The notes beneath the pieces are model-generated. The model did not search any database, had not been told where the DNA came from, and saw nothing but the letters and a program-made list of their open reading frames with translations. DNA of 16,683 nt from a bacterium (GTDB lineage Bacteria; SM23-31; JAUVVT01). Each line of letters starts with the position of its first letter. Position 1 is the first letter of the stretch. Of the stretch, positions 263 to 10,352 are shown piece after piece. Position numbers and translations under genes: made by a program. Location of the stretch: assembly GCA_030616165.1 (NCBI GenBank), contig JAUWXV010000058.1, positions 1 through 16,683 on the forward strand. The letters are read 5' to 3'.

Positions 263-277
263 AGGAAAGTTTTTCCT
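263..277. promoter_or_regulatory. Candidate enhancer (upstream activator) palindrome
   Basis: A perfect inverted repeat AGGAAA-GTT-TTTCCT is centred at 270, about 120 bp upstream of the -24 element at 150 (roughly -144 from the predicted start). A sister site TGGAAA-AAG-TTTCCA occupies the equivalent position before the flgB promoter. NtrC-type activators bind palindromes at such distances. Alternatively it could be a weak terminator for the flgB operon, since it lies 9 nt after the final stop codon. However, no U-tract follows on the minus strand, which makes the terminator reading poor. Confidence 0.5.
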
Positions 278-286
278 ATCAAAATT

Positions 287-841
287 TTAATACATCACTG
301 CTCCAGATAGTCTTTGAGTTATTTCAATTGCTCTATCAATCGACATCTGCCCAAGAATTCTTGCTACTCTTCTATCGTCCATTAGTAAAAAAATCTCCAC
401 AATTGTCTGGTCATCAAGTTGAGAAATAATTGGTGCTGCTTCTTCGGGTCTCATTCCCTCACACACTTTAGCAAGTTTCTGAATACGCTCTTTTTCATAA
501 CCTTCTCTTTGCCCGGTTAACATTTCTAACTCCCGCTTAACCGCTTCCAAACTGTCTTTTTCATTATTAATCCGCTGCTGCTCTTCAGTTAGTTTTAGTT
601 TCTCCTGCCCAAGGTCAAGTTCTCTTTTCTCATAATCTCTTGCTCTTAACTGTTCAGCAGTTGGTATCCCGGTTATTAAAGATGAATCTACTATAGCAGC
701 CTCTTTTCGAAATATATTTACAATCCTTTCCTGTAAAGGAAGTTCCTTATCTCTAAATTTATATACCAAACCATATATAACTCCCAACATTATTATAAAT
801 GAGAATGCTGACATTACTAAAAATTTTAACAATATTTTCAT
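287..841 (-). CDS. MotE/YlxF-like flagellar membrane protein with MgtE-N domain
   Basis: This 184-residue protein has one N-terminal membrane segment (about residues 5-27), a short extracytoplasmic linker, a charged coiled coil (about 68-125), and a C-terminal FliG/MgtE N-type domain. In that domain the stretch KVCEGMRPEEAAPIISQLDD and the following IVEIFLLMDDRRVARILGQM are characteristic. The architecture matches the MotE/YlxF family, encoded after fliJ in many flagellar operons; MotE in alphaproteobacteria is a periplasmic chaperone for the motor protein MotC. The gene starts 24 nt after the fliJ stop and closes the operon. No clear Shine-Dalgarno precedes its ATG, so it may depend on translation of the genes ahead. 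Family assignment is good; a specific function here is not shown. Confidence 0.85.
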   Translation of the reverse strand: MKILLKFLVMSAFSFIIMLGVIYGLVYKFRDKELPLQERIVNIFRKEAAIVDSSLITGIPTAEQLRARDYEKRELDLGQEKLKLTEEQQRINNEKDSLEAVKRELEMLTGQREGYEKERIQKLAKVCEGMRPEEAAPIISQLDDQTIVEIFLLMDDRRVARILGQMSIDRAIEITQRLSGAVMY

Positions 842-865
842 CTTTAATTAATTTTAAATTATTCT

Positions 866-1327
866 TCAAATATTCAATCTCGTAATTAATTCCTCCTGAA
901 GAAAATACTTTGATAAAGAAATTTCATCGCCTTGAATCTGCTGATCTTTATCAAAATCATGTAAGTATTCCTCCCTTGTTTTTTGTTTAAGGTTTTCTAT
1001 GGCTTGCCTCTCTTTATAAGCCCATTCCAGTTTCTTTTTATTATTCTCAACTTCTTTCTCACACTCTGATATCCTATTAATCTGTCTTTGAATTTCAAAT
1101 ATTAACAGAGTCAAATAACTGCTGTAAAATCTCATCTCAAATATGGACAACCTCTTTCTCCCTCTTATTTCATTCTGATAGGTCTGTAATTTATCTCTAT
1201 GATTGTCAAGAACTAACTGTTCTGATTCCAAGACATTTAATGCATTTGCAAGTTCCCTTTCTCTTATTTGCTGAATCACCTCTTTAATATCAAGAACCCT
1301 CTGCAATCTGAATCTATATCTTTTCAT
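866..1327 (-). CDS. fliJ: Flagellar export chaperone / ATPase stalk FliJ
   Basis: The 153-residue protein is almost entirely charged alpha helix and opens with YRFRLQRVLDIKE, the usual start of FliJ proteins. FliJ forms a coiled coil that inserts into the FliI hexamer, links it to FlhA and helps deliver export substrates at the cytoplasmic face of the export gate. Length is close to the family norm of about 145-150. The gene begins 11 nt after the fliI stop without a convincing Shine-Dalgarno, which suggests translational coupling. Sequence conservation in FliJ is low, so position directly after fliI carries much of the weight. Confidence 0.9.
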   Translation of the reverse strand: MKRYRFRLQRVLDIKEVIQQIRERELANALNVLESEQLVLDNHRDKLQTYQNEIRGRKRLSIFEMRFYSSYLTLLIFEIQRQINRISECEKEVENNKKKLEWAYKERQAIENLKQKTREEYLHDFDKDQQIQGDEISLSKYFLQEELITRLNI

Positions 1328-1338
1328 TGGTCTATTAA

Positions 1339-2685
1339 TTAATTCACGGAAACATCTTTAACTAATTCAATTAATTTTTTTATTGATTCCTCAAATTCGC
1401 ATTTCTCGTAAATATCCTGCCTCAAGAATTGATTTACAGAATCAATAAGGCTGATTGCCTCATCAATTTTTGGATTACTCCCTTTAGAATACGCGCCGAT
1501 ATTAATCAAATCTTCAGATTCCCGGTATGTAGCAAGTAAATTTTTTAATTTATTAACAGCAATTCTTTGCTCATCACTGACCACATCAATCATTAACCTG
1601 GAAACACTTTCCATAACATCAACCGCAGGATAATGATTCCCATTCGCCAGCCTTCTTGATAATACTATGTGACCATCAAGGATAGACCTTGTAATATCAG
1701 AAACGGGCTCGCTAAGGTCATCTCCTTCTACCAACACTGTGTATATTCCTGTTATGCTTCCCTTTTCCGTCGCCCCGGCTCTTTCTAATAGTCTCGGCAA
1801 AAAAGCATACATTGATGGGGGATATCCTCTCGTAGTGGGAGGCTCCCCAATAGAAAGGCCAATCTCTCTTTGAGCAACAGCAATCCGACTTGCAGAATCC
1901 ATCAAAAGCATAACATCCATCCCTTTATCCCTGAAATACTCTGCAATAGCAGTTGCTGTCATTGCCCCCTTTATTCTTAAAAGAGCAGGCTTATCATTGG
2001 TTTCCACCACTACAACTGAATTCTTTAGCCCCTCTTCGCCAAGGTCTTTTTCAATAAAATCCCTGACCTCCCTTCCTCTTTCTCCAACCAAGCCGACTAC
2101 CGTCAAATCTGCTTTTGTATTTCTGGCTATCATTCCCATTAATACTGATTTCCCTATACCAGAACCCGAAAATATTCCCACTTTCTGACCTTTTCCAAGG
2201 GTAACAAAACTGTCAATAGAACGAATTCCGGTAATTATTGGTTCATTAATTCTCTTCCTATCCATCGCTCTGGGAGGTGAATTATCTATTGGATATTTAA
2301 CCTTTTCCCTTATCGCTCCTTTATTATCGATAGGTCTTGCCAGTCCGTCTACTACTCTTCCAATTATATCTTCACTGATTTCAATATAAAAAGGTTCTCC
2401 TGTTGTAAAAACCTCCGAGCCTGGTGCAATCCCCTTTAATTCACTCAAAGGCATAAGAAGAACCATATTATCTCTAAACCCTACTACCTCTGCAATCCCT
2501 TCTGATTTGCCTTCCCTGCTTCTAATAATACATTTTTCACCAATTCTGCTGTGAGGACCAATTGACTCGTAAACCAGCCCTATTACCTTAGTTATTCTAC
2601 CCTTTCTTTTAACAAAACTGTGTTCTTCTATTAAATTGTGATATTTTTTAAAAATCTTATCTGATATCTGAGATTCAAACTCCAA
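1339..2685 (-). CDS. fliI: Flagellum-specific ATPase FliI
   Basis: FliI hydrolyses ATP at the base of the flagellar type III export apparatus and releases substrates from chaperones. It shows the F1-beta-like layout: an N-terminal barrel (GRITKVIGLVYESIGP), a Walker A loop GSGIGKS, a Walker B region VMLLMDSASRIAVAQRE, and the family signature GEPPTTRGYPPSMYAFLPRL. An upstream ATG at 2721 would overlap fliH by 47 nt and has no ribosome-binding site. A TTG at 2683-2685 follows TGGAGG with a 9-nt gap, overlaps fliH by only 11 nt, and gives a normal-length N-terminus (448 residues). I therefore prefer the TTG, though 2721 cannot be excluded. The gene lies between fliH and fliJ in the standard order. 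Confidence 0.95.
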   Translation of the reverse strand: MEFESQISDKIFKKYHNLIEEHSFVKRKGRITKVIGLVYESIGPHSRIGEKCIIRSREGKSEGIAEVVGFRDNMVLLMPLSELKGIAPGSEVFTTGEPFYIEISEDIIGRVVDGLARPIDNKGAIREKVKYPIDNSPPRAMDRKRINEPIITGIRSIDSFVTLGKGQKVGIFSGSGIGKSVLMGMIARNTKADLTVVGLVGERGREVRDFIEKDLGEEGLKNSVVVVETNDKPALLRIKGAMTATAIAEYFRDKGMDVMLLMDSASRIAVAQREIGLSIGEPPTTRGYPPSMYAFLPRLLERAGATEKGSITGIYTVLVEGDDLSEPVSDITRSILDGHIVLSRRLANGNHYPAVDVMESVSRLMIDVVSDEQRIAVNKLKNLLATYRESEDLINIGAYSKGSNPKIDEAISLIDSVNQFLRQDIYEKCEFEESIKKLIELVKDVSVN

Positions 2686-3409
2686 GTTTCTTATCCTCCA
2701 GCAGAACTCTTTCCAATTCATTAAGTTTTGTTTCTAACCGTGCATCAACTTCTCCAGAATTCGTCTCCAATAAGCATCCGCCTCTTGTTATCTTATCATC
2801 TGATTCTATCTTAAAATTTTTCACATCCTTTAACGTATTTATCAGTTCCTTTTCATACTCCTTAATAACATTATAATCCTCTGGATTCAACTTAAGAACT
2901 AAATCAGTCTCATCCGAAATAAACTCAAGAGATTCTTTAATCATAGCCAATATAACTTTATCATCTTTTTCTATCTCCTTTTTAATAATCTTTCTAACTA
3001 TAAGATAACAAAGAGTTATAACTTCTTTTTCTGCTTCATGAATTACTAATTCTTTTTCATCCAAAATCTTTTTTGAAATACTAAGAAAATCATCTATCAA
3101 TGGTCTTATTTCGTCTTTACCCTCCTTAATACCTCCTTCTTTCCCGTCATTAAAACCTTGAGTATATGTCTCTTTCTTTTCTTGTTCGAATTGAGCAGTT
3201 AGTTTGCTTTTCTGTTCTTCAAGCGCAATCTTAACTTTTTCACTGACTTCTTCCTTCAGGCGCTTTTCAAATTCTTCTCTCTTTCGATTTTCTTCCTCTT
3301 CCTGCCTTCTTCTTTCCTCCTCTTCAGGTCCAATTACCTCATCAACAACAAAACCTTCAACAAATCTTATTTTTCTTATTGGCTTCGTAGATTTAATAAT
3401 ATTATGCAA
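2675..3409 (-). CDS. fliH: Flagellar assembly protein FliH (FliI negative regulator)
   Basis: FliH binds FliI and docks it to the export gate and the C-ring; it resembles the peripheral stalk of ATP synthases. The protein has a short N-terminus containing NIIKSTKP (typical of FliH), a long Glu/Arg/Lys-rich coiled coil, a glycine-patterned stretch (YTQGFNDGKEGGIKEGKDE), and a globular C-terminal domain ending near GGCLLETNSGEVDARLETKL, which is characteristic. The open frame extends to a TTG at 3463 deep inside fliG, with no ribosome-binding site. TTG codons at 3409 and 3412 follow GGGGAGGAGAAGAGGAAA and place NIIKS at the expected N-terminus. I use 3409, giving 244 residues. Its 3' end overlaps the start of fliI. 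Confidence 0.9.
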   Translation of the reverse strand: MHNIIKSTKPIRKIRFVEGFVVDEVIGPEEEERRRQEEEENRKREEFEKRLKEEVSEKVKIALEEQKSKLTAQFEQEKKETYTQGFNDGKEGGIKEGKDEIRPLIDDFLSISKKILDEKELVIHEAEKEVITLCYLIVRKIIKKEIEKDDKVILAMIKESLEFISDETDLVLKLNPEDYNVIKEYEKELINTLKDVKNFKIESDDKITRGGCLLETNSGEVDARLETKLNELERVLLEDKKLGV

Positions 3410-4418
3410 CAATTTCCTCTTCTCCTCCCCTTCCGGAGATAACGATTTCGCCTTCTTCTTCAAGGCTTCTGATTACTTCAACGATTTTCATCTGCGAGTC
3501 TTCAACATCCTTCAACCTCACAGGACCCATAAATTCAAGTTCTTCTTTAATTAATCCAGACGCTCTTTCTGACATATTTCTGAATATTGCGTCCTTCACT
3601 TCATCTGTTGCAACCTTCAGCGCAAGAGAAAGTTCTTTTGAATCTACCTCACGGAGAACCCGCTGAATAGAGCGGTCATCAAGAAGGACAAGGTCTTCGA
3701 ATACAAACATAAGGTTCTTTATCTCGGTTGCCAGTTCCGGATTCCTCTTTTCAAGATCTCCAAGTATAGTCTTTTCTGTGGACCTTCCCGCAAGGTTTAA
3801 TATCTGTGCAACAGCCTTAGCACCACCTGCTGCGCTGAGGTCTTGTCCAAATACTGTTTCTACTTGGGATTCAAGAATCCCTTCAATATCTGAAAGAAGA
3901 TCAGGGGATATCTTCCCCATTGTTGCTATTCGATATGCCACTTCTCCTTGAATTTCAGGTGGTAAATCTGCAACTATCTGAGCAGTTTGTTCTGGTTCAA
4001 GATTTGCAAGTATCAATGAAATAGTCTGCGGATGTTCATGTTGAATAAAATTCAATAATTGATTCGGATCAACCTCTTTCAGTAGTTTAAATCCGCTGAC
4101 ATGAATGGCAGACTCAACTTTTGATACAATTTCATGAGCTCTCCTTGGTCCAAGTGCTTTTTCAAGAAGGGCTTTTGCATATTCTATACCACCCTGAGAT
4201 ATATACTCCTGCGCCATTATCATTTGATAGAACTCTTCCACGACTGCCTCCATAACCGTAGAAGGTACATCTCGCATATTCGCTATTTCAATTGACAATT
4301 TTTCTATATCTTTATCCTTGAGATTTTTGAAAATCTGGGATGCCGATTCTACACCTATAGAAATTATAAGTATCGCCGCTTTCTGCCTCCCAGTTAGCTC
4401 TTCAAACGAAATTTCCAT
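3402..4418 (-). CDS. fliG: Flagellar motor switch protein FliG
   Basis: FliG sits on the cytoplasmic rim of the MS ring and transmits torque from the stator. The 338-residue length is normal. The N-domain (from about residue 5, LTGRQKAAILIISIG) binds FliF, the middle domain contains the EHPQ motif (about 128-131), and the C-domain has MFVFEDL (about 237-243). That is followed by the conserved charged helix, about residues 258-303, which faces MotA. All three domains look intact. It starts 3 nt after the fliF stop, and its 3' end overlaps the start of fliH, so the export-ATPase genes are likely co-translated with it. Confidence 0.98.
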   Translation of the reverse strand: MEISFEELTGRQKAAILIISIGVESASQIFKNLKDKDIEKLSIEIANMRDVPSTVMEAVVEEFYQMIMAQEYISQGGIEYAKALLEKALGPRRAHEIVSKVESAIHVSGFKLLKEVDPNQLLNFIQHEHPQTISLILANLEPEQTAQIVADLPPEIQGEVAYRIATMGKISPDLLSDIEGILESQVETVFGQDLSAAGGAKAVAQILNLAGRSTEKTILGDLEKRNPELATEIKNLMFVFEDLVLLDDRSIQRVLREVDSKELSLALKVATDEVKDAIFRNMSERASGLIKEELEFMGPVRLKDVEDSQMKIVEVIRSLEEEGEIVISGRGGEEEIVA

Positions 4419-4421
4419 TTT

Positions 4422-5897
4422 CTAAGTTCTCTCCTCTATTAACCATGTTTTAAGTAAGGAAGCCACATTTTCAGGTTTATCTCTTGAAAATTTTGACACC
4501 TGGTCGAGCATTTGCGTTCTTCTCTGCGCCTCAGCAGATATCTCTTCTTCTATGGCTTCCGCCTCGATATCAATAGCTGGTCGAGGTTTTGGTCTTGGTA
4601 ATAATAAATCAAGACTTTTAAAAATTGACCTCAATACTACTAAAAATATTATCCCGGCAAAAGACAAAATAGAATATCTAATTACTTTCCCTATAAACTC
4701 CTTTCTTTGTTCTGCTCTTATTCTCGCCTCTTCTGCCTCTCTCGCTGTTGTATCAAACGGAAATTCAACAATTTGAACCTGGTCTCCGCGGCCCTCATCG
4801 TATCCTATGGCAGCCATAATAGAATTTTGTAAATCATTCAACTCCTGCTGAGACCTCCCGGTATCTACCGTAACGGAAACTGAAATCTTTTCAATCTTAC
4901 CATATTTATCGTTAATTTCTTCAATGATTTTATCAATCTCATAATTTGTAATTGAACTCTCTCCTCTGGATGGAGTACCCAGGGTATCGGTAACCATTCC
5001 TGCTGATTCACTTCTATCCTCACTCCTTACTATTTGAGTTCCGGGTTCATATCTCTCACTTACCGTTGAAATTTGCTTGAAATCCATTTCTATAGTAACC
5101 CTTACAACCGATTTGCCAGGTCCTAATACTCTATTAAGCATTGACTCTATCTCTCTCCTAAATCCACTTTCAATTTCATTCTGGATTTCAATTTGATTTG
5201 CAGTCATTAAATAAACTTCGTCACGGTTAAGTTCTTTGGAAAGGTCATTCCCATATGAATCAATTATACTGACATTGCCAACTTTAAGCCCTTCCACACT
5301 CATTGCAATAGTCTTGGCAATGCTGTAAACATTTTCACGTGTCAATTCTGTCCCCGGACGAAGCGTTAAAACCGTAGAAGCAGTCGTCTCTTTCTGGTCT
5401 TCTATGAATAATGCCTCCTCTGGAAGAACTATATTAACTTTTGCTCTTTCAACATTTTCGATAATACGAATAGTTCTCGCAAGCTCTTCCTGCAGAGCCC
5501 TTCGATAATTGACCTTCTGAATAAAATCTGTTATTCCAAGATTTGGTCTGTCAAAAATCTCGTATCCCACTCCTGCTTGAGAGATTATTCCTTCTGCATT
5601 AGCCTCGATTCTTAATCCGGTCTCTTCCCCCTCAGGAACTAAAATCGCCGTCCCCTCTGTCTCAAGTTTATAAGGAATACCCTTTTCCTCAAGTTTTTCT
5701 ATCAGTGCCTGTGCATCTTTAGGGTCAAGATTCGAAAAAAGAACAACATAATCTTTCTGGCTCGCCCAAATCATCAACAACATTATTACTACTATACTTA
5801 TAATAGAAACAAGAAAGATTACAAATTTTTGAGTAGGATTTAACTTTTTTAATACACTCTGAATCTGTTTAAAAAATTGTCGGAAAAATTCTACCAT
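4422..5897 (-). CDS. fliF: Flagellar MS-ring protein FliF
   Basis: FliF oligomerises in the inner membrane to form the MS ring, the first structure built in the basal body. Two membrane segments are visible (about residues 24-45 and 405-424). They enclose the periplasmic ring-building motifs, including VLFSNLDPKDAQALIEKLEE and the stretch ending in VNYRRALQEELARTI. The C-terminal cytoplasmic tail ending KPENVASLLKTWLIEE is the FliG-binding peptide. At 491 residues it is somewhat shorter than the common 520-560 range, with the shortening apparently in periplasmic or linker parts. No Shine-Dalgarno is evident before the ATG. A 68-nt AT-rich spacer separates it from fliE. Confidence 0.97.
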   Translation of the reverse strand: MVEFFRQFFKQIQSVLKKLNPTQKFVIFLVSIISIVVIMLLMIWASQKDYVVLFSNLDPKDAQALIEKLEEKGIPYKLETEGTAILVPEGEETGLRIEANAEGIISQAGVGYEIFDRPNLGITDFIQKVNYRRALQEELARTIRIIENVERAKVNIVLPEEALFIEDQKETTASTVLTLRPGTELTRENVYSIAKTIAMSVEGLKVGNVSIIDSYGNDLSKELNRDEVYLMTANQIEIQNEIESGFRREIESMLNRVLGPGKSVVRVTIEMDFKQISTVSERYEPGTQIVRSEDRSESAGMVTDTLGTPSRGESSITNYEIDKIIEEINDKYGKIEKISVSVTVDTGRSQQELNDLQNSIMAAIGYDEGRGDQVQIVEFPFDTTAREAEEARIRAEQRKEFIGKVIRYSILSFAGIIFLVVLRSIFKSLDLLLPRPKPRPAIDIEAEAIEEEISAEAQRRTQMLDQVSKFSRDKPENVASLLKTWLIEERT

Positions 5898-5965
5898 AAT
5901 AATAAAATTTTTTTAATTAAATGATTATATTTTTTAGTTAAGCCGTTAATGGAATCCCGAAGATA

Positions 5966-6262
5966 TTAGACCTGCATCCTCATAATTTCTCGATAAGCAT
6001 CTATCATTTTGTTACGTATTTCCATCATTAATTCAAAGCTTGTCCCTGCTTTCTCAACAGCAATCATAACATCATGAATATCTTTAATTTCCCCTGTTAA
6101 AAGTTTTTCTACAGATTCTCCAGCGAACTTCTGAGCCTCATCTACATCGTTTATAAACTTCTTTAAAGTCTGTTCAAAATTTACCTCTTTCTTAATAGAT
6201 TCCTGCTCTTTGGGAAGTTGAATCGGAGTAATCTGTTTATTTATTTGAGGAATTTTGTTCAT
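5966..6262 (-). CDS. fliE: Flagellar hook-basal body adaptor FliE
   Basis: FliE is a small export substrate that joins the MS ring to the rod. The 98-residue protein has a polar, poorly conserved N-terminus and the diagnostic C-terminal helix containing VEKAGTSFELMMEIRNKM followed by DAYREIMRMQV. Length matches the family (about 100). An AAGGAG Shine-Dalgarno lies about 9 nt before the ATG. It is placed between flgC and fliF as in most flg/fli operons. Confidence 0.96.
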   Translation of the reverse strand: MNKIPQINKQITPIQLPKEQESIKKEVNFEQTLKKFINDVDEAQKFAGESVEKLLTGEIKDIHDVMIAVEKAGTSFELMMEIRNKMIDAYREIMRMQV

Positions 6263-6301
6263 CTATTAAAACTCCTTTTTACATTAATCAAAATTTCCTA
6301 A

Positions 6302-6799
6302 TTATATTTCTAATGCTTGCTGCATCATACTTTTTGCAGCACCAATAGCAGTTACATTCGCTTCATATGCCCTCGTAGCTACCATCATATTAACCATTTC
6401 GGTAATCATATTAATATTAGGATAAGCAGCAAATCCATTTTCATCAGCATCGGGATGGTCAGGCTCATAAACAAGACGTGGTGGCTTATCATCTTCAAGA
6501 ATACCATCAATTTTTACTCCCTGGGCATATTCTTCTCTTACCTCTCGAAATGCTTTATTATCAATATGCCATTTATTTGTCCTTTTTAACTTTATAAATT
6601 CTTCTTTAAGGATAGTTAAAAATTGTGCTCTTTTAGCCGGACTCAAAATCACCTGCTGCCTCTTATATGGACCCCCTTTTTCAGTTCGAGTAGATTCAGC
6701 ATTTGCGATGTTACTTGCAATTATATTAAGTTTTGTGCGCTGAGCTGTTAGACCTGTTGCACTTATATCTATTGATGAGAATAATCCTTGTATTGACAT
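6302..6799 (-). CDS. flgC: Flagellar proximal rod protein FlgC (with internal insertion)
   Basis: FlgC forms part of the proximal rod crossing the periplasm. The N-terminus (ISATGLTAQRTKLNIIASNIANAEST) and the C-terminus (EMVNMMVATRAYEANVTAIGAAKSM) are the conserved rod/hook coiled-coil ends. The DPxHPDADENG-type motif reads EPDHPDADENGFAAYPNINM. At 165 residues it is longer than the usual 134-150. The extra length is a basic, Lys/Arg-rich stretch at about residues 61-91, between the N-terminal region and the GVKIDGI segment. The gene is followed 39 nt later by fliE but preceded by an unusually long 240-nt spacer after flgB. Confidence 0.97.
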   Translation of the reverse strand: MSIQGLFSSIDISATGLTAQRTKLNIIASNIANAESTRTEKGGPYKRQQVILSPAKRAQFLTILKEEFIKLKRTNKWHIDNKAFREVREEYAQGVKIDGILEDDKPPRLVYEPDHPDADENGFAAYPNINMITEMVNMMVATRAYEANVTAIGAAKSMMQQALEI

Positions 6800-7039
6800 T
6801 TACTGATAAACCTGAATTTATTGCCTAAATTTCTTCTTTTGATTTAAATATTACTAAAATTTTGTAAATTTTTATTTTTCAATAAAAAACGATTATATTT
6901 AATCCTCTTACTAAATTATCGGAAATTTACTAAAATTTCGTTAAATATTATACACTTATTAATATATTTTATCCTCAAAAACTCTCACAATACGATTACA
7001 ACATAATTTAAATAACTATAACCCTTAAGAATTTTTATC
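6800..7039 (-). other. Long AT-rich spacer between flgB and flgC
   Basis: FlgB and flgC are normally adjacent, yet 240 nt separate them here. No open frame of note, hairpin terminator or sigma-54 motif is visible. On the minus strand the sequence TCCGATAA at 6916-6923 matches seven of eight bases of the sigma-28 -10 box, but the matching -35 (TAAC at 6940-6943, 16-nt gap) is weak. Two similar stretches containing AAATTTTAGTAA occur about 80 nt apart. Most likely a long untranslated spacer; an internal promoter is possible but unproven. Confidence 0.4.
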
Positions 7040-7474
7040 TTATCTAACCCCTTCTCCCCTTATAGCCGACTTTAATCTGCTAAATATATTCCCAATCAAA
7101 ATAGAAGCACCTTGATATCTAATTTGATTCTTCGCAAGTTCTGCCATCTCTTTATCTATGTCCACATTATTCATTCCGCTTGGAAGAGTCGGGTCTTTCG
7201 GAATAATATATTTCGGCTTTACTTTCTCTATTTCCCTTTTGCCAATGGGCATATGCTTTTCATGCGTAACGTAGCCTCTAATCCCTTCTTTCTTAAAAGC
7301 CGCTTTTAAATCTTCTTCAAATGTTACTTCCGACCTTCTAAATCCCGGTGTATCCACATTTGCAATATTATCCGCAATAGATTTCTGCCTCATTGAATAT
7401 GCTCTTAATCCCTTATGTAAAAGTGGTATATTAGTCTTTCGAAAAATGAAATTCGGAATATCTACCAGTTTCAT
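7040..7474 (-). CDS. flgB: Flagellar proximal rod protein FlgB
   Basis: FlgB is a proximal rod subunit exported through the flagellar type III system. The 144-residue protein has the rod N-terminal motif MRQKSIADNIANVDTPGFRR and the C-terminal coiled-coil motif NNVDIDKEMAELAKNQIRYQ, both diagnostic, and a normal family length. It is the first gene of the flagellar operon. A sigma-54 promoter lies 56 nt upstream, giving a predicted 5' leader of about 45 nt. The Shine-Dalgarno before the ATG is weak. Confidence 0.97.
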   Translation of the reverse strand: MKLVDIPNFIFRKTNIPLLHKGLRAYSMRQKSIADNIANVDTPGFRRSEVTFEEDLKAAFKKEGIRGYVTHEKHMPIGKREIEKVKPKYIIPKDPTLPSGMNNVDIDKEMAELAKNQIRYQGASILIGNIFSRLKSAIRGEGVR

Positions 7475-7529
7475 AATATAGTCGATACTATTCTGCTATA
7501 TGTAATTGAGGAAATTTATATAATTTTTT

Positions 7530-7545
7530 TGCAATTAATATGCCA
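7530..7545 (-). promoter_or_regulatory. Sigma-54 promoter of the flgB operon
   Basis: The minus strand reads TGGCATATTAATTGCA, with GG and GC 12 bp apart, matching the sigma-54 consensus TGGCAC-N5-TTGCA at all but one core base. Predicted transcription start is near 7519, giving a 45-nt leader before flgB. An NtrC-type activator with the GAFTGA loop is encoded immediately upstream. This fits the common arrangement in which early or middle flagellar genes depend on RpoN. Confidence 0.85.
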
Positions 7546-7650
7546 TAATACAAAAATCTCTTAAATTAATAAGAAATTAACATAACTTATATATTTTCAA
7601 TGTAATAAATTTTAATTAAATCCCTCTTTAATATAAAAATCTATAATATA

Positions 7651-7690
7651 TGGAAAAAGTTTCCACAAAATCGGGATATTATTTCCACAA
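7651..7690. promoter_or_regulatory. Candidate activator binding sites upstream of flgB
   Basis: A perfect palindrome TGGAAA-AAG-TTTCCA spans 7651-7665, centred 115 bp upstream of the -24 element. A second copy of the half-site TTTCCACAA starts at 7682, 22 bp (two helical turns) after the first copy at 7660. The arrangement suits a dimeric enhancer-binding protein at about -140 to -165. The same GGAAA-N3-TTTCC palindrome recurs at 263-277 before the second sigma-54 promoter. A weak terminator for the regulator gene is the main alternative. Confidence 0.5.
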
Positions 7691-7691
7691 C

Positions 7692-9080
7692 TTAATTTTC
7701 TTTCAGAAAACAGGTATCAAGTTCTCCTTTCGCCTTATATTCATTAAGTTTATTTCTTAACGTTCTTACTGAAATATCAAGGATTTCGGCAGTTTTTGTT
7801 CTATTGAAGTCATTGTTTTTCAATGTTTTTAATATTTGTTGTTTTTCGAGTTCTCTTAATGTCATTTGAGTATCTTCAGAATGAAATTCACTTGACTGGT
7901 CAAATCCATCTTCCTCAAAGAGAAAATGCCTAATCTGTAAAATAGGCTCTTTACTGATAATCATTGCTCTTTCTATTCTGTTTTCGAGTTCCCTCACATT
8001 TCCCGACCAATCCAATCGCATAAGAAGAGATCCTGCCTCTCTGGAAATACCTTTTATCTCACGGTTGTGCTCTTTATTATACTTTCTGATAAAATGCTCA
8101 ACGAGTAGGGGTATATCCTTTTTCCTTTCTCGCAGTGGAGCAACATGAATTGGAATTACATTTATCCTGAAATACAAATCTTCTCTGAACCTCTCTTTTT
8201 TAATTTCTTCTTTAATATCCTTGTTTGTAGTTGCTATAATCCTCACATCAACCTTAATACTCTGAGTATCTCCAACCCTTTCAAACTCTTTTTCCTGAAG
8301 GACTCTAAGCAGTTTTGCCTGAAGTCCGGCGCTCATCTCGCTGACCTCATCGAGCAGAAGCGTTCCGGTATGTGCTGCTTCAAACCTCCCTTTCCTTGCC
8401 TTTATAGCGCCGGTAAATGCACCCTTTTCATGCCCGAAAAGTTCGCTCTCCATTAGCCCTTCGGGAATAGCAGCACAGTTCGTCTTTATAAAAGGTTTGT
8501 CTCTGCGCGGGCTGTTATAATGAATGGCACGTGCTATTAATTCCTTCCCTGTTCCGCTCGGTCCTTGAATAAAAATTGTGGCATCACTCTCCGCAACTGT
8601 CTTAAGCATATCAAAAATCTTCCGCATTTTTGCACTCTTTCCCACAATATTATCAAATCCGTAAAGACCATCAATTTCTGAGCGAAGATATCTATTCTCA
8701 TTTTTTAGTCTGTGATGCTCAATCGCCTTTTTTACAATCAATTCTATATGGTCAAGAGAAGACTCCTTGGTTATATAATCATACGCACCCATTTTCATAG
8801 CCTCTACTGCATTTTCAATCGTGCCAAAGGCTGTTATCATAAGAATTTCTGAGCCCGGCTGTGAAATTTTTGCCTCTTTTAAAACATCCATCCCCGATAT
8901 TTCTGGCATCCGAATATCAGTTATAACTATATCATATTCAGAATTTTTTAACTTTTCAATAGCCTCTTTCCCGTTTACAGCTTCATCTGCACTACAGCCC
9001 ATTCTTTTCAATATCTCTTTTAAATAGTCCCTTATAAGAGACTCATCATCAACGACCAATACATTCTCATTTTCTGGCAT
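7692..9080 (-). CDS. Sigma-54-dependent response regulator (NtrC/FleR/FlgR type)
   Basis: This 462-residue protein has three domains. The receiver (about 1-125) has acidic D11/D12, phosphoacceptor D55 in ITDIRMPE, and K105. The AAA+ domain (about 140-370) has Walker A GPSGTGKE (173-180), an intact GAFTGA loop (220-225) that contacts sigma-54, and Walker B LLLDEVSE. The C-terminus is a Fis-type helix-turn-helix (RTKTAEILDISVRTLRNKL). It lies 39 nt after the kinase gene and directly upstream of the sigma-54-controlled flgB operon. It is therefore probably the flagellar activator of the FleR/FlgR kind. A Shine-Dalgarno AGGGG precedes the ATG. The cellular signal is unknown. Confidence 0.93.
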   Translation of the reverse strand: MPENENVLVVDDESLIRDYLKEILKRMGCSADEAVNGKEAIEKLKNSEYDIVITDIRMPEISGMDVLKEAKISQPGSEILMITAFGTIENAVEAMKMGAYDYITKESSLDHIELIVKKAIEHHRLKNENRYLRSEIDGLYGFDNIVGKSAKMRKIFDMLKTVAESDATIFIQGPSGTGKELIARAIHYNSPRRDKPFIKTNCAAIPEGLMESELFGHEKGAFTGAIKARKGRFEAAHTGTLLLDEVSEMSAGLQAKLLRVLQEKEFERVGDTQSIKVDVRIIATTNKDIKEEIKKERFREDLYFRINVIPIHVAPLRERKKDIPLLVEHFIRKYNKEHNREIKGISREAGSLLMRLDWSGNVRELENRIERAMIISKEPILQIRHFLFEEDGFDQSSEFHSEDTQMTLRELEKQQILKTLKNNDFNRTKTAEILDISVRTLRNKLNEYKAKGELDTCFLKEN

Positions 9081-9119: not shown

Positions 9120-10352
9120 TCAAATAGGCAGATTTATTTCAAAAATAGCTCCCTTACCTTCTTCACTTTTAACGAATATTACTCCCTTATGGACATCAAT
9201 TATCTTTTTAACAATAGCTAAACCCAGTCCAGCTCCATTGGGCTTTGTTGTAAAAAACGGATTAAAAAGCTTTTTCTGGACACTTTCGCTCATTCCTTTC
9301 CCATTATCTTCTATAGATATAACCATATTCTTCCCATTATTTTCCATTCTTACCCCGACTCTTAATCTACCTTCATTTTCTATTGATTCTGACGCATTTT
9401 TTAAAATGTTCAGGAGAACCTGTTGAAAAAATTCCGGATCATACCTTATTTCTTTACAATCAGATGGAAAATCTCTAATAATCTCAATTTCTTTACCGTC
9501 CTGCTCCAATTCAACCTCCATAAGGCAAAGAACTTCATCAATTGTTTTAATAATATCCTGTTTTTGTAGTTCAGGTTTTATAGGTCTTGTATAAAAAAGT
9601 AGGTTTGCAGCAATTCTGTTGAGCCCGGAAACACCTTCGATAATCTTTTTCACAAGATTCCTTCTCGGGTCATCAATATCAAGGTCTCTTTCAAGAAGAG
9701 CAGCAAACCCACCAATTCCCCCAAGGGGATTCCTTATTTCATGAGCAACATTTGCTGCCATTTCCCCTAACGCAGCTAATGTTTTTGCATGCTGAACTTC
9801 TTCTTCAAGCATTTTTATCTCGGTCATATCACTGAATATCTCAACGGCACCAAGAATCTCTCCGTGCTCATTCTTCACAAGTGAAGTGCTGTATTCTATT
9901 GGAACTGTCGAACCATTAGTTGTGATTATTTCCCTCTCCTCATTTTCATATTCTTTACCGTCTTTTAGTGTCGATAAAAGAGAAAGACTCTTGTCTATTA
10001 AATTCCCATAAATATTTTTATAATATTTTCCAATTACATCTGAACTTTTCAATCCAGTAACTTCTTGTGCAGCATTATTAAAGACCGTAATTTTTCCTTT
10101 AAGATTGATTACCACAATACCCATCTTCACACTTTCAAGTATATTTCTGAGATGATTCTTTATTGAATCCATCTCTTTAAGATTTTCCGACAACTCTCTA
10201 TTTTTCTTCTCCAATTCAATATTTAGTTCCTTGACTCTCTCTTCAAGTAGTTTATAAGCATTTTCGAGTCTGAGCGTGGTCTCGCTAAAAAATTCAAAAG
10301 CATTCTTTAAAGCAGTAATCTCTTTTTCTTTAGATTTTTTCCTGACTGGCAT
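9120..10352 (-). CDS. Soluble PAS-domain sensor histidine kinase (FleS/FlgS-like)
   Basis: The 410-residue protein begins with a coiled coil (about 10-70), followed by a PAS domain (about 68-180), a HisKA dimerisation domain with H-box HEIRNPL (phosphorylated H204), and a HATPase domain. The ATPase domain shows the N box (NILKNASES, about 315), DNGKGM (349-354), NPFFTTK and GAGLGLAIV. No membrane segment or signal peptide is visible, so it senses a cytoplasmic cue, like FleS or FlgS of other flagellar systems. It forms a two-gene unit with the regulator downstream. Role in flagellar control rests on gene position; the kinase class is certain. Confidence 0.93.
   Translation of the reverse strand: MPVRKKSKEKEITALKNAFEFFSETTLRLENAYKLLEERVKELNIELEKKNRELSENLKEMDSIKNHLRNILESVKMGIVVINLKGKITVFNNAAQEVTGLKSSDVIGKYYKNIYGNLIDKSLSLLSTLKDGKEYENEEREIITTNGSTVPIEYSTSLVKNEHGEILGAVEIFSDMTEIKMLEEEVQHAKTLAALGEMAANVAHEIRNPLGGIGGFAALLERDLDIDDPRRNLVKKIIEGVSGLNRIAANLLFYTRPIKPELQKQDIIKTIDEVLCLMEVELEQDGKEIEIIRDFPSDCKEIRYDPEFFQQVLLNILKNASESIENEGRLRVGVRMENNGKNMVISIEDNGKGMSESVQKKLFNPFFTTKPNGAGLGLAIVKKIIDVHKGVIFVKSEEGKGAIFEINLPI

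Follow-up and report, generated by a model that had tools for sequence, protein, structure and literature searches.

A palindrome at flagellar sigma-54 promoters as the predicted enhancer site of a kinase-linked, FlbD-like activator

The window analysed here, a stretch of 16,683 nucleotides that makes up the complete contig C253 of a 3.74 Mb draft bacterial genome (G000), carries the short palindrome GGAAA-N3-TTTCC transcriptionally upstream of each of two minus-strand sigma-54 promoters, and this arrangement raises the question of what the palindrome is for. The initial annotation of the sequence had taken it to be the recognition site of a regulator encoded close by, and had proposed that this regulator co-activates the flgB operon and a second operon lying beyond the left end of the window.

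Palindromes, promoters and operons in the window

Both palindromes are present at the positions given earlier. One (GGAAAGTTTTTCC, 264-276; 263-277 in its 15-bp form) is found directly 3' of a FlbB/MotE-like gene and belongs to the promoter predicted for fliK-flgD-flgE, and the other (GGAAAAAGTTTCC, 7652-7664; 7651-7665 in its 15-bp form) is the primary site of the flgB promoter. The promoters are consensus calls, and their sequences, like those of the sites, are predicted. The flgB promoter (TGGCATATTAATTGCA, 7546-7531, minus strand) would serve the operon flgB-flgC-fliE-fliF-fliG-fliH-fliI-fliJ-flbB/motE, and the left promoter (TGGCATAAAAGTTGCA, 152-137, minus strand) reads off the contig, by synteny into fliK-flgD-flgE. 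The two had been called identical, which is true of the consensus bases (TGGCAT-N5-TTGCA) but not of the spacers. From the centre of the palindrome to the first T of TGGCA the distance is 118 bp at the left promoter and 113 bp at flgB; the earlier figures of 120 and 115 bp hold if the count is taken to the GG. What had been described as a half-site, 22 bp further upstream than the primary flgB copy, does exist, but is really a near-complete second site with one mismatch (GGATATTATTTCC, 7674-7686). A third exact copy (1600-1612) lies within fliI, is not upstream of any promoter and is probably due to chance.

The controlled operon begins with flgB (7040-7474, minus strand; TIGR01396), and its last gene before the fliK promoter encodes a FlbB/MotE-like protein (287-841, minus strand) that occupies the MotE position, has an MgtE_N-type domain and matches the FlbB flagellar collar model below threshold. 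Contig C246 of the same genome (G000:C246:1-13545; L088) starts within a large ORF with a FliK domain (PF02120), followed by flgD, flgE, flbD and motA, and in the relatives fliK-flgD-flgE comes directly after flbB/motE, from which we infer that C246 probably continues the left end of the window. The left promoter probably drives fliK-flgD-flgE, as the content of C246 and the gene order of the relatives both suggest, and this agrees with the earlier prediction that the left-hand operon is flagellar.

Distribution of the site in the genome and the class

In itself the palindrome is not enriched, as the genome contains 13 exact copies and the reversed control also 13, a result that would suit the view that this genome abounds in short AT-rich palindromes and that two matches mean nothing. 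It is the position of the copies that makes this view scarcely credible. Three of the 13 exact palindromes are located 60-320 bp upstream of a sigma-54 consensus, where 0.037 would be expected (P about 8e-6), and these three are the two window copies and one near the flagellin promoter. The consensus TGGCA-N6-TTGC is matched 41 times in the genome against four times in the control, so that most of the matches are likely to be real promoters. A site with no more than one mismatch is found within 320 bp of all five intergenic flagellar sigma-54 promoters, namely those of flgB, the left operon, flgF (C187), flbD-motAB (C246) and fliC (C199), and of only one of the 36 other matches (p=8e-6). The earlier expectation that the palindrome would be commoner upstream of sigma-54 promoters is thus borne out at the flagellar ones. 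Moreover, dinucleotide shuffling of each window upstream region gave an equal match in 0 of 500 cases, and the positional enrichment that speaks against chance in this genome is also seen in the class and in other phyla. A sigma-54 match at C245:5368, inside flgK and without a site, was rejected as a flagellar promoter; if it is counted, the proportion becomes five of six.

The sole site-bearing promoter among the 36 other matches (G000:C187:9634-9648; L055, L089) is non-flagellar, has two enhancer-like sites 21 bp apart and precedes a gene for a 1309-aa secreted Ig/cadherin-like protein on C187; it may belong to the flagellar regulon.

The class was sampled through six genomes, the window's own and five relatives, with loci found by a FlgB search; several of the compared genomes are incomplete drafts. 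All 16 flagellar sigma-54 promoters found in these genomes are preceded at 60-320 bp by GGAAA-N3-TTTCC with no more than one mismatch, and conservation in related genomes, which the initial annotation had made a test of its idea, is seen at flagellar promoters of all five relatives. A relaxed motif, GG(A/C)AA-N3-TT(T/G)CC, was chosen after the class sites had been viewed, the strict motif giving 16 of 16 as well; the sites are exact matches to the strict form in nine cases and to the relaxed form in 11, and 3.6% of shuffled sequences come within one mismatch of the relaxed form. The genes downstream are flgB, fliK, flgF, flbD/motAB and fliC. At flgB the sites are orthologous across G001-G004, the primary site having the same sequence in G000 and G001, and in G002 and G004 one half of each kind is combined (A/T and C/G at the third position).

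The order common to the class is histidine kinase, response regulator, site, sigma-54 promoter and flgB-flgC-fliE-fliF-fliG-fliH-fliI-fliJ-flbB/motE, followed by a site and promoter ahead of fliK-flgD-flgE and by a further site and promoter ahead of (flbD)-motA-motB-fliL-fliM. The whole of this order is found on a single contig in G004, where the small flbD was not identified. The sites lie 104-301 bp upstream of their flagellar promoters, some of them far out (230-301 bp), and their own upstream neighbours differ from one promoter to another. This variation bears on whether the palindromes could be terminators, or hairpins in the mRNA, where the preceding genes end, as might be thought from their position, directly 3' of a stop codon in both cases, and from modest folding z-scores of -1.7 and -2.3. 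That reading was rejected as very improbable, since a terminator search at flgB found none, no T-run follows either stem and the element recurs at flagellar sigma-54 promoters with differing neighbours, also in tandem, with its sequence conserved rather than its stem.

Across 20 promoters there are 12 secondary matches (at most two mismatches) 15-60 bp from the primary site, where 1.4 would be expected. Eight of the 12 have a spacing of 21-24 bp, and outside the window's own family these are seen only in G047; the second flgB site is kept in G001 with a spacing of 23 bp. The earlier proposal of cooperative binding is hence plausible for these pairs but not in general, a second site being absent at most promoters of other families.

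Midway between the enhancer and the -24 element both window promoters also share an AT-rich 16-mer, TATTWTCAATRTAATA, which is found on the plus strand at 202-217 (TATTATCAATATAATA, IHF-like, 57 bp upstream of the left promoter's -24) and at 7592-7607 (TATTTTCAATGTAATA, 54 bp upstream of that of flgB). One-mismatch copies are present at flgB of G001 and G003, and in the class four promoters, three of flgB and one of fliK, have the element between -53 and -57. The IHF-like sequence makes an IHF/HU bending site possible, and the genome has ten HU/IHF-family matches. As there are 19 matches to the 16-mer with up to one mismatch in the genome and the element is not exclusive to these promoters, it is regarded as a side feature only.

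The activator, its helix and their distribution beyond the class

The gene at 7692-9080 (minus strand) encodes a sigma-54 activator of the NtrC family of EBPs (PF00158, E=5e-73; PF02954, E=1e-12), with an intact receiver in which the conserved Asp, Thr and Lys are retained, an AAA+ domain with the GAFTGA sequence and a Fis-type HTH. Next to it, at 9120-10352 on the same strand, lies the gene for a PAS histidine kinase, its predicted partner, and the order kinase, regulator, site and flgB is kept in the class. The recognition helix, ISVRTLRNKL, is of the FlbD type; a literature search on the FlbD recognition helix returned nothing useful. The same RTLRNKL helix is found in an EBP that holds the FlbD position in an Azospirillum flagellar operon, beside fliF-fliH-fliN and flhA. 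In a protein tree, which left out Caulobacter FlbD, V. cholerae FlrC, P. aeruginosa FleR and C. jejuni FlgR, all sampled RTLRNKL regulators and the Azospirillum protein form one clade (support 99/98), and they do so too (93/99) when the HTH is excluded to avoid circularity.

Beyond the class, 386 genomes were searched for a module composed of a sigma-54 promoter with GGMAA-N3-TTKCC 80-140 bp upstream. Within the class it is matched nine times, in all six genomes and always before flagellar genes, with no match in the reversed control; outside the class there are 34 matches against two in the control. Nine of the outside loci that were read precede rod, hook or FlgJ-like genes and the rest precede unrelated genes. 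A FlgB search of named genomes returned mostly Firmicutes without sigma-54 promoters. A strong RTLRNKL-type HTH is encoded in 24 of the 32 module-positive genomes and in 52 of the 354 others (p=1e-12), and the association persists without the class (18 of 26, p=4e-9), although such co-occurrence p-values are indicative only, because the genomes are related and not statistically independent. The same pattern is seen at flgB loci, where an exact site is present in eight of the 12 that have an RTLRNKL regulator upstream and in four of the 97 others (p=6e-7). At a Nitrospira flgB locus the regulator, the site GGCAAGAATTGCC and a sigma-54-like promoter follow in the same order as in the window, and at a Planctomycetota flgB locus there is a pair of sites spaced at 22 bp. 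Helix and site do not always go together, as three distant flgB loci have an RTLRNKL regulator and no exact site (L062, L084, L211). Many RTLRNKL genomes are without the module at 80-140 bp, and two flagellar, module-positive genomes (G241, G359) fall below the helix threshold.

The palindromes might also be flagellar enhancers that are bound by another EBP of the genome, such as a master regulator of the FleQ/FlrA type. The genome has ten strong EBP matches, of which nine are proteins other than the window regulator, and the flgB-adjacent EBP of G091 has a different helix, NRTTLVQKI. Among the EBP C-termini that can be read in the window's genome (those on C250 and C241 are incomplete), however, RTLRNKL occurs in the window regulator alone, G091 encodes an RTLRNKL regulator elsewhere (L228), and across genomes the presence of the helix tracks that of the site. 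The FlrA/FleQ-type repeat of D. vulgaris is different as well, yGTCA-N6-TGACr (PMC4641369). A role for another EBP is consequently improbable. The recurrence of the palindrome at flagellar promoters, in other phyla as well as across the class, makes it very probable that it is the docking site of the neighbouring flagellar activator, as first proposed, an assignment favoured by the adjacency of site and gene, by the RTLRNKL helix, read in no other EBP of the genome, and by the co-occurrence of helix and site.

Proposed mechanism and relation to known flagellar systems

It is highly probable, judging from sequence comparisons, that the palindromes are the enhancers of a kinase-linked flagellar sigma-54 two-component system of the FlbD/ftr type. 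In response to a signal, the histidine kinase would phosphorylate the receiver of the activator, a dimer of which is predicted to bind GG(A/C)AA-N3-TT(T/G)CC through the ISVRTLRNKL helix of its Fis-type HTH. In the window's family the second site, two helical turns away, may aid loading of the AAA+ oligomer. The DNA would then loop, perhaps aided by an IHF/HU-type bend near -54, so that, about 115 bp downstream at TGGCA-N6-TTGC, the GAFTGA loops could remodel the sigma-54 polymerase. Co-activated in this way would be the flgB-to-motE basal-body operon, fliK-flgD-flgE, flgF, flbD-motAB and flagellin.

The closest parallel at the DNA is the Caulobacter FlbD/ftr system, which likewise pairs a flagellar sigma-54 activator of NtrC architecture with a palindrome of the same layout. 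The FlbD site, as cited in PMC3333781, is CCCGGCA-N5-TGCCGGG. The window site shares the 13-bp frame of its core, with the third position of each half changed from C to A and from G to T; positions 3 and 11 of the window sites are mostly A/T instead of C/G, and the outer CCC/GGG is missing. Caulobacter FlbD/ftr also needs IHF (PMC3096577). DVU1063, the FlbD homologue of Desulfovibrio vulgaris, is a further flagellar sigma-54 regulator with an FlbD-like site layout, its DAP-chip motif, GGCAxxxxTGCC, being reported to resemble that of FlbD (PMC3333781). Some DVU1063 sites are 40-70 bp downstream of promoters (PMC4641369), whereas the sites found in this analysis are all upstream. The receiver is atypical in both FlbD and DVU1063, and FlbD is without a kinase (PMC3333781, PMC7064773).

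The window regulator differs from both in its intact receiver. It also has an adjoining kinase, unlike the kinase-free Caulobacter FlbD, which works with FliX. In this respect it resembles FlrC, FleR and FlgR, whose receivers have the phosphorylation residues and which have a partner kinase and rod and hook targets (flgB, fliK-flgD-flgE and flgF in the window's system), a likeness of architecture and targets. In the FlrBC, FleSR and FlgSR systems a histidine kinase and a phosphorylatable EBP control rod and hook genes (PMC7064773). With regard to the FlbD/ftr type, the regulator shares the clade of the Azospirillum protein and the layout of the site, but has neither the atypical receiver nor the lack of a kinase; it would work like FlbD and is not filed as FlbD proper. 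Its description as FlbD-like at the DNA and FlrBC/FleSR-like at the input, a variant of a known flagellar enhancer system, appears well supported.

A wider proposal, for which we would give even chances, is that ISxRTLRNKL EBPs of many phyla read GG(A/C)AA-N3-TT(T/G)CC at sigma-54 rod and hook promoters as a bacteria-wide code, the kinase-linked form being older and the kinase-free, FliX-controlled FlbD of the alphaproteobacteria derived. A guess made on raw sequence has in this way led to a well-supported predicted regulon for an uncultured group, and with a rule of one helix and one site, flagellar regulons can be predicted for genomes that lack experiments. A testable connection is offered as well, between the kinase-driven flagellar checkpoints of the FlrBC type and Caulobacter FlbD/ftr, seemingly separate solutions. 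A minor observation concerns a locus of another phylum (L109, G176:C12), at which promoter and site stand ahead of a PilM-like gene, which points to a possible further role of the site, in type IV pili, in some lineages.
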